This document shows positions 12,506 through 42,514 of a stretch of 64,000 nucleotides of DNA, one piece after another. Position 1 is the first letter of the stretch, and each line of letters begins with the position of its first letter. Origin of the DNA: Rhodocyclales bacterium. Its GTDB lineage: Bacteria; Pseudomonadota; Gammaproteobacteria; Burkholderiales; Rhodocyclaceae. The stretch is from NCBI GenBank assembly GCA_016192435.1, contig JACPUD010000120.1, positions 1 to 64,000 of the forward strand. The letters run 5' to 3'. A model generated the notes under the pieces. The model did not search any database, was not told the DNA's origin, and saw only the letters and a program-made list of their open reading frames with translations. The position numbers were made by a program, and so were the translations under genes.

Positions 12506-12591
12506 GATTCCCAACCTCCAAGAGGGTTTACCCGGAAACCGGAAACGGACGGAAAACAAAGTTTCAGATCAGGCCGATGCCCACGTAGGCG

Positions 12592-12608
12592 GGCGTTGCG
12601 CCGAAACT
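12592..12608 (+). repeat. Short dispersed sequence B, copy 1
   Basis: The 17-mer GGCGTTGCGCCGAAACT recurs with one mismatch (A for G) at 42482-42498, also intergenic. It sits in the divergent Rieske-xseB gap. Only two copies were seen, so the family status is tentative. Confidence 0.4.
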
Positions 12609-12745
12609 GAAGGACCGTCAGGAGAGACAATCTGCGCTGAAAACCAGCCGCGCAATTGTAGCCAATTTGACCAGAGGGCGCACCTTAGGCTATTTTTACG
12701 GTTTTCCCTTGCCGCTGGTCACCGTTTTCGGCCAAGGCTTCACTC

Positions 12746-15822: not shown

Positions 15823-15875
15823 CGTTAGCCCAAATCCGACAGCCACCCAAAATCAGAATGAATTGCAGGAATCCC

Positions 15876-16682
15876 ATGGCCCCACCCGAAAAATCCGTCA
15901 TTGCCGACGTTCAAAGCACCCCGGATTCGCGCCAGTTGCCGATCAACAAGGTCGGCATCAAGGACATACGCCATCCGTTCAAGGTATTGGACAAGAGCGG
16001 CGGCGTGCGTCACACCATCGCCAATTTCAACATGTATGTCGGGCTGCCGCATAATTTCAAGGGCACCCACATGTCGCGTTTCGTCGAGATCCTCAACTCG
16101 CACGAGGAAGAAATATCGGTTGAAAGTTTCGAAACCATGTTGCGCGAAATGGTCACCCGCCTGGAGGCGGCGACCGGGCATCTCGAAATGAGCTTCCCGT
16201 ATTTCATCAACAAGGTGGCACCGGTATCCGGCGTCAAGAGCCTGATGGATTACGACGTGACCTTCATCGGTGAAATCATCGAAGGCGGCCGCTACCGGCA
16301 GACCATCAAGGTCGTGGTCCCGGTCACGAGCCTGTGCCCCTGCTCGAAGAAGATCTCCGAGCGCGGCGCGCACAACCAGCGCTCGCACGTCACCATCACC
16401 GCGACCACCAACCAGTTGGTGTGGATCGAGGACATCGTGCGCATGGCCGAAACCCAGGCTTCGTGCGAGCTGTTCGGGCTGCTCAAGCGCCCCGACGAGA
16501 AGTTCGTCACGGAGCGGGCCTACGACAATCCGAAATTCGTCGAGGATCTGGTGCGCGATGTCGCCGGCGCGCTCAATGCCGACCCGCGCATCGATGCCTA
16601 TGTGGTCGAAAGCGAAAACTTCGAATCGATCCACAATCATTCGGCCTATGCGCTGATCGAGTGGGACAAGAAACACTTCTGA
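15876..16682 (+). CDS. folE2: GTP cyclohydrolase I type 2, FolE2
   Basis: 268 residues from the ATG at 15876, preferred over one 18 bp upstream because AGGAA sits six bases before it. FolE2 converts GTP to dihydroneopterin triphosphate, the first step to folate and, through QueD, to queuosine. The signature [19 protein letters not shown] contains the metal-binding cysteine of the family, and [15 protein letters not shown] lies near the end. FolE2 is the metal-flexible form, often used when zinc is limiting; no Zur site was recognised. Notably tgt and queA for queuosine are also in this window. Confidence 0.95.
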
Positions 16683-16717
16683 TCCCACGCGGCGGCGGCT
16701 GACCGTTCCAAGCACAA

Positions 16718-16749
16718 CGGGCCGCCCGGAGTATCCTCCGGGCGGCCCG
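16718..16749 (+). terminator. Strong hairpin after folE2, probable terminator
   Basis: Perfect 14-bp inverted repeat (CGGGCCGCCCGGAG / CTCCGGGCGGCCCG) with a four-base loop, 35 bp after the folE2 stop. The following bases CTTTGCTG give only a weak T-tract, so it may work in part with Rho. Confidence 0.6.
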
Positions 16750-16780
16750 CTTTGCTGTCTGCTACCGGAATCAGGTCCGG

Positions 16781-16932
16781 CGCGTAAGTTTTTAGCGCAG
16801 GCAAGCCCGCGCTGAAAACTTACACTGCGAGAGCTTTTAGCGCAGGCAAGCCTGCGCTGAAAACTTACACTGCGAGAGCTTTTAGCGCAGGCAAGCCTGC
16901 GCTGAAAACTTACACTCTTCGCGTAAGTTTTT
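16781..16932 (-). repeat. Three tandem 45-bp palindromic units inserted at the 3' end of rplS, flanked by a 13-bp direct repeat
   Basis: Units begin at 16790, 16835 and 16880 (the last is partial, to about 16917). Each carries AGCGCAGGC-AA-GCCTGCGCT, so each can fold back, and the second copy is near identical to the third. The flanks 16781-16793 and 16920-16932 are the same 13 bases (CGCGTAAGTTTTT on plus). On the minus strand the outer flank continues AAACTTACGCGCCGGACC TGA, which reads KLTRRT-stop, matching the C-terminus of the present RplS (KLTRRV). This looks like insertion or expansion within the old rplS end. Runs of T precede and runs of A follow each stem, so it is not a standard terminator. 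Confidence 0.85.
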
Positions 16933-17272
16933 CCTTGATGCGCGCCGACTTGCCGGAACGATCGCGCAGGTAGTACAGCTTGGCGCGACGCACGTCGCCG
17001 CGACGCTTGACCTCGATGCTGGCGATCAGCGGCGAGTAAGTCTGGAAGGTGCGCTCGACGCCCTCGCCAGACGAAATCTTGCGCACGATGAAGTTCGAAT
17101 TGAGACCGCGATTGCGCTTGGCAATGACGACGCCTTCGAAAGCCTGGACACGTTTGCGATCGCCTTCGACCACATTCACATTGACGATCACGGTGTCGCC
17201 CGGTGCGAACGCGGGAACGGTCTTGCCCAGGCGTTCGATTTCTTCGTTTTCGAGTTGCTGAAGCAGGTTCAT
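16910..17272 (-). CDS. rplS: 50S ribosomal protein L19
   Basis: 120 residues, full-length L19, at the 30S-50S interface. Starts [17 protein letters not shown] and contains the conserved [23 protein letters not shown] and [28 protein letters not shown] segments (interrupted here for brevity). Last gene of rpsP-rimM-trmD-rplS, the near-universal order, 87 bp after trmD. The final codon and stop (GTG TAA) belong to the tandem repeat described at 16781-16932; the probable original ending, Thr then TGA, lies 139 bp further on. Confidence 0.97.
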
Positions 17273-42436: not shown

Positions 42437-42457
42437 AAACGCTGCGCAGCAGCGTTT
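42437..42457 (-). terminator. Hairpin between tgt and yajC
   Basis: AAACGCTGC-GCA-GCAGCGTTT, 9-bp arms, followed on minus by TTTTGG if the stem's end is counted. It may end queA-tgt transcripts or reduce read-through into yajC-secDF. Confidence 0.5.
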
Positions 42458-42481
42458 CAATGAAGGCTCGCCCGCGATGCA

Positions 42482-42498
42482 GGCGTTACGCCGAAACT
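42482..42498 (+). repeat. Short dispersed sequence B, copy 2
   Basis: GGCGTTACGCCGAAACT, one base different from 12592-12608. Lies in the 100-bp tgt-yajC gap. Confidence 0.4.
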
Positions 42499-42514
42499 AA
42501 AATTAAGCGGCGGA

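Follow-up and report, generated by a model that had tools for sequence, protein, structure and literature searches.

We consider it likely that the three palindromic 45-bp units at the 3' end of rplS are a shortened and tandemly expanded copy of a small palindromic element that is dispersed throughout the genus, and that this element is a non-autonomous mobile repeat. Sister species carry filled and empty forms of the same site; at filled sites the terminus of the gene is duplicated and an orphaned copy lies beyond the element; the element occurs at many other places, with a preference for the edges of genes; and at rplS the last codons pair with an inverted copy of themselves in a hairpin, here called H1. 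At filled sites one copy of the terminus stays with the gene, and the orphan copy beyond the element, usually closer to the intact form in the sisters, is read as the former end (rplS) or the former start (fabD, secA). In the mechanism we propose, movement would be by transposition, with insertions tolerated mainly where the terminus is duplicated; the 45-bp units would stem from an internal deletion followed by slippage, and some insertions may have been lost through recombination between the two termini.

In model bacteria, rplS, fabD and secA are essential genes. Within this one genus, sites at such genes occur naturally as empty, filled, layered and decayed, which makes it testable how a repeat enters a gene that must not break.

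The end of rplS in the window and in sister species

The window is the whole 64,000-nucleotide stretch analysed. TRF identified a repeat at 16790–16916 with a period of 45, 2.8 copies and 98% matches. In register, the array occupies 16782–16916 on the minus strand as three palindromic units (16782–16826, 16827–16871 and 16872–16916) of the form TTTTCAGCGC(A/G)GGCTTGCCTGCGCTAAAA, each of which is a shortened form of the hairpin H2 described below; scored on their own strand with the family covariance model they reach 22.4–25.7 bits, with about 24 stem positions missing. The adjoining gene (16910–17272, minus strand, 120 aa) we take to be rplS (ribosomal protein L19) from the initial annotation and from its sequence; trmD, folE2, fabH, fabD, secA, hldD, rpmF, yajC and tgt are likewise names that we presume from the protein sequences. 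The open reading frame 17272–16910 and the comparison with sister species both place the present end of RplS at KLTRRV-TAA. Downstream on the same strand lies an orphaned former rplS end, AAACTTACGCGCCGGACCTGA, which reads KLTRRT-stop (TGA) at 16771–16791. The initial annotation had recognised the array, the present end and the downstream KLTRRT at 139 bp, and in this it was accurate, except that the orphan end is contiguous (16791–16771) and not in two parts.

The order on the minus strand is thus rplS with its KLTRRV-TAA end, the three units, the orphan end, a GC-rich inverted repeat from the inverted-repeat listing (16711–16756) and then a convergent, folE2-like gene on the plus strand (15858–16682). 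The inverted repeat is likely to be a terminator common to both convergent genes. The K codons of the present and orphan ends are 139 bp apart, which is not a multiple of three, so that read-through of the present TAA would miss the KLTRRT frame; the suggestion that read-through keeps the frame therefore fails. An exact 13-bp direct repeat is present on both sides of the array, as had been reported, with one copy adjoining the orphan end (16781–16793) and one within the present rplS end (16920–16932). It is not the plain target duplication that had been assumed: the functional copy is a changed gene end, which pairs with its own inverted copy.

The array does not arise by chance. The core pattern, allowing up to three mismatches, has four matches in the window, three of them the array itself, against 0.22 expected in shuffled sequences, and the 246-nt RNA strand of the array region folds at −148 kcal/mol, which is 12.9 standard deviations below 200 shuffles (z −12.9). 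Elsewhere in its own genome, a draft of 148 contigs that is 83% complete, the exact array core has a single match, with three mismatches. The prediction of further genomic copies holds for the element family, which is dispersed, and not for the exact core.

RplS was matched in 56 of the 61 genomes, including 27 of the 31 from the genus (no match in G006, G008, G019 and G020). A plain end, KLTRKA-TGA, without trace of an insertion is found in 13 of these 27 (G001, G003, G007, G010, G011, G012, G016, G017, G018, G023, G024, G026 and G029), which is the short form that had been anticipated in relatives. A palindrome follows the near rplS end in another 13 (G000, G002, G004, G005, G009, G013, G014, G021, G022, G025, G027, G028 and G030), and these sites combine a related palindrome with an orphan end; the number of units is one, two or three depending on the species, again as expected from a variable array. 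G015, in which the RplS match covers all 120 residues, has KLTRRVTPAA-TGA and an orphan remnant without a palindrome. Outside the genus, the palindrome occurs at the same place in one of 80 named loci (L074), a Nitrosomonadales MAG whose RplS is 86% identical and in which the near end KLAAR-TGA is followed by the palindrome and the orphan KLAARVAE-TAA; the closest named RplS among the records compared is that of a Sulfuritalea MAG, at 91%. These filled and empty sites support the original reading, in which an essential gene received an insertion at its end, the end was duplicated and KLTRRT is the old one. The insertion is not private to this genome, given the 13 genus genomes and the distant MAG, and an insertion that expanded into 45-bp units is an incomplete description, because each unit is a shortened form of a palindrome whose family extends across the genus.

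The orphan is usually the end closer to the intact form. Among 13 genomes with an orphan, its first 18 nt are nearer than those of the functional copy to the best intact rplS end in 10, and the functional copy is nearer in three (G005, G013 and G015); G027, whose contig stops in the palindrome, was left out of this comparison. The clearest case is G009, in which 72 bp separate the near K codon from that of the orphan (a 72-bp insert) and the orphan is identical at 36 of 36 positions to the intact end of G012. In the window itself the orphan is identical to its best intact match at only 20 of 30 positions, which, like the three exceptions, counts against our reading; the letters downstream of it align with ends in G015 and G027. 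Two contigs of G027, compared by eye, seem to give the order KLTRKA-TAA, palindrome, KLTRRVAPAA-TGA and a further remnant, that is, two successive orphans, and this layering suggests more than one round of insertion.

One of these contigs (L007) seems to end in the palindrome, with letters that we take to resemble a sequencing adapter. Together with the draft state of the window's own genome, this is what could point to an assembly artefact of a metagenome bin, an explanation that we regard as most improbable: the same element is found at this site in 13 genomes of the genus and in L074, in several of them well inside contigs. This argument covers the element, and not the number of units in the window's own genome.

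A tree was built from trmD and rplS DNA (30 rows, with several forks open and G003 represented by 20% of the columns). The rplS trace requires at least eight changes on this tree if any trace is counted, or nine for the palindrome, each of which may be a gain or a loss; this patchy presence is a point against our reading. Well-supported neighbours differ in state, with G013 filled and G017 empty, and with G005 and G030 filled and G007 and G018 empty. Some empty ends, such as that of G010 (AAACTTACCCGCAAGGCTTGA), resemble hybrids of a near and an orphan end, which would fit loss by recombination.

A dispersed palindromic family at gene edges

The inner core TAATGCCTGCGCCAGCAGGCGTTATGCC, with up to three mismatches, was found in 11 of the 31 genus genomes; 16 places were listed, three of which are rplS. 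A covariance model built from 16 copies located the family in 30 of the 31 genus genomes (at least 0–30 copies each, median 13, and none in G018) and in 11 of 30 genomes from elsewhere in the order (at least 0–8 each), these counts being lower bounds because at most 91 candidates were scored per genome, under strict filters. The window holds two further copies, both on the plus strand: one at an ORF start (12557–12614; 47.2 bits, E 3.8e-9) and one between yajC-like and tgt-like genes (42450–42504; 34 bits, E 5.3e-6). By eye, the first of these has similar flanks in G001 and G004, at a similar distance from rplS.

A full copy is approximately 48–72 bp long and contains hairpin H2 (TTTCAGTGAAGGCTAATGCCTGCG..CAGGCGTTATGCCGGAACTAAA), often preceded by the smaller hairpin H1. 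The whole unit is an imperfect palindrome, short and non-coding, with terminal inverted repeats, as is characteristic of a MITE. At the foot of the hairpin the tag GTAG appears in two of the 16 alignment rows, and GGAG or GGAA, on the 3' side, in 11. Copies adjoin unrelated genes. Four inner-core places on contig C118 of the window's own genome form an array of 4 × 63 bp crossed by an open frame (G000, C118:509–755, locus L147); the frame repeats SGVSAQANARASGRYAVAK and runs into what we take for a signal peptide.

This dispersal bears on a purely local origin, in which template switching at the rplS end would produce the inverted copy H1, and slippage the array, with no mobile element involved. 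H1 is indeed an inverted copy of the last codons, and the array is a clean tandem expansion; H2, however, recurs at many sites in many species and so was not made at rplS, which refutes a local origin as the full explanation and leaves it improbable. Template switching and slippage could nevertheless lie behind H1 and the number of units.

Placement was analysed from 105 model hits, obtained from 87 loci and the window. For the position test 44 copies were used, after most repeats of the same site had been dropped, although some still share a site. An ORF start (23 copies) or stop (11 copies) is found no more than 60 bp away for 34 of them, as it is for 27% of 1320 places drawn at random from these loci. 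Sixteen copies are inside ORFs, as compared with 85% of the random places, and 13 are at distance 0 from an ORF edge. The edge preference may be inflated, because stop codons in the element create ORF ends and the ORF caller is crude. For the flanking-repeat test 67 hits were kept, tandem arrays and double fetches having been dropped. Direct repeats significant by shuffling (p < 0.02) flank 16 of the 67, with aligned lengths of roughly 15–40 bp, and these 16 fall on only six sites: fabD (8 copies), rplS (2), secA (2), hldD (2), L154 and L188. The other 51 copies lack a significant flanking repeat in this test, which weighs against our reading, and a target duplication of fixed length was not seen at most copies. 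An exact target-site duplication is unsupported for most of the 67.

Relation to known repeats and transposases

The small palindrome with a mismatched stem resembles a REP element moved by a RAYT (REP-associated tyrosine transposase). Y1 transposase (Y1_Tnp) matches occur in 26 of the 31 genus genomes, and G018 has neither a Y1 match nor a family copy. Against this, none of 18 loci, taken around part of the Y1 genes listed, contains a family copy at E up to 1, the two Y1 loci examined for repeats have inverted repeats of their own that are unrelated to the family, four drafts without a Y1 match (G000, G006, G011 and G016) list 14–19 copies, and GTAG is found at the hairpin foot in two of 16 rows. 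We rejected the RAYT link on the absence of copies in the 18 loci, and consider it very unlikely. Four Y1 loci (L237, L241, L243 and L246) carry another motif, AAAGTCGGCGCTGGCG..ACGGCG, with inverted repeats such as AGGGGTCAGAGTCATTTG; these appear to form a distinct repeat family of TIRYT type.

No transposase or autonomous partner of the element came to light, which is a further point against our reading, and searches for a carrier were negative at the sensitivity used. Viral contigs gave no match to one exact pattern of the element, and plasmids none to the G009 site (141 bases including the element); phages gave one 28-bp match to the G009 site, at E 0.03, to letters beyond the element. 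No Rfam family reached its gathering score in the window, and the best Rfam hit for the G009 site, at E 0.72, was far under the cut-off. We found no earlier description of the element in the literature searched, which is not proof that none exists, and rplS is unmentioned among the papers listed by a literature search using that gene name.

The element is akin to the small palindromic repeats that are grouped with MITEs, and is set apart from them by the duplicated gene terminus and H1. In mycobacteria, MIRU repeats lie at the junctions of start and stop codons, and the placement seen here is similar. Rickettsia palindromic elements (RPE) are likewise small, dispersed and palindromic; they are described as 105–146 bp, or about 150 bp, in length, with many inside genes, and can fuse in frame to protein genes (PMC10969869, PMC2229807). 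By these descriptions the present element differs in being 48–72 bp long, mostly at gene edges, and accompanied at several sites by a duplicated terminus; an open frame crosses the four 63-bp units on C118, and most of the 44 copies tested are at ORF edges. The YPAL (RU-2) element of Yersinia is given as 168 bp long and intergenic, with duplicated targets that range from 3 to 26 bp and are at or adjoining dyad symmetry (PMC2229807). Both elements are small and have duplications of variable size, but here the flanking repeats of about 15–40 bp hold gene starts or ends. REP elements with a RAYT or TIRYT are also small palindromes, and GTAG REP ends are described as often supplying a stop codon to neighbouring ORFs (PMC3733652); unlike them, the present family showed no link to a Y1 gene in the loci examined, rarely has GTAG, is listed at about 13 copies per genome and duplicates the gene terminus.

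Duplicated gene starts and hairpin H1

The start of fabD is occupied in nine of the 31 genus genomes and empty in 22. The original start, MKFALVF (MKFAFVF in G014), stays upstream, and a second start follows the element. In eight of the nine the frame of the orphan start continues across the element and closes after 21 codons (type MKFALVFSSGITPAVAGISLH), and in G023 it runs on. Compared with the consensus of the 22 empty starts over 21 positions, the orphans match at 17–20, the functional copies at 17–19 and the empty starts at a mean of 18.7; overall, functional and empty starts differ little. The opening codons differ more distinctly: ATG-AAG opens six of nine functional copies and none of the 22 empty ones.

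In secA, a pattern search of 29 genomes found orphan starts, either one or two, in 13 of them, and by eye G010 has a degenerate one. For 16 of the 18 orphans the frame closes after precisely 19 codons (type MITGFSSSITPACAGISFL), and the element is read in the same frame as at fabD. ATG-ATA opens 12 of 13 functional copies against none of the 14 readable empties (G003 was unreadable). In G021, secA has a 37/37 repeat that, by eye, resembles a duplicated whole unit more than a fresh target duplication. Misannotation of gene starts and ends is thus easy at fabD, secA and rplS in this genus, and short leader peptides are predicted upstream of fabD and secA.

At rplS in the window, H1 (16906–16930, minus strand) consists of the last codons AAACTTACGC, the loop GAAGA and the inverted copy GTGTAAGTTT, which contains the TAA stop; all 10 positions are paired, one of them as G-U. 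The arms are complementary at 10 of 10 positions in 10 of 14 occupied rplS loci, as compared to 5–7 in the 13 empty loci. Lower values are found in G021 (8), G002 (7), G014 (9) and L074 (6), the last being limited by the minimum loop setting, since the printed arms pair at nine of 10. In G021, CTCAC:GTGAG with a TGA stop replaces CTTAC:GTAAG with a TAA stop. An energy test of H1 over 63 copies was weak (12 below z −1.5, mean −0.3), so that a family-wide H1 rests on letters common to many copies and on the pairing at rplS.

The pairing and the replaced pair in G021, the strong RNA fold and the constant leader length at fabD (eight of nine) and secA (16 of 18 orphans) are what would be expected of a structured mRNA element under selection, with the hairpins after rplS stabilising the mRNA or insulating it from the convergent gene, and with leader peptides ahead of fabD and secA. 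This is a possibility that we do not favour: the element is absent from about half or more of the sisters (13 of 27 at rplS, 22 of 31 at fabD), its copies adjoin unrelated genes, no Rfam family corresponds to it, and the orphan termini are left unexplained by selection on mRNA structure alone. The mobile repeat, which we prefer, allows a further and much more tentative proposal. It may be a new kind of small mobile element, one whose insertion remakes the start or end of the target gene, in that a second, synonymously changed set of first or last codons is folded on its inverted copy as H1; rplS, fabD and secA would survive the insertion, and the orphaned start might remain in use for a leader peptide with a tail from the element, coupled to the new start.

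At an hldD-like start, two loci (L196 and L208) have a family copy with the gene start duplicated and roughly 35 bp of flanking repeat; by eye, their H1 arms look long and nearly perfect.
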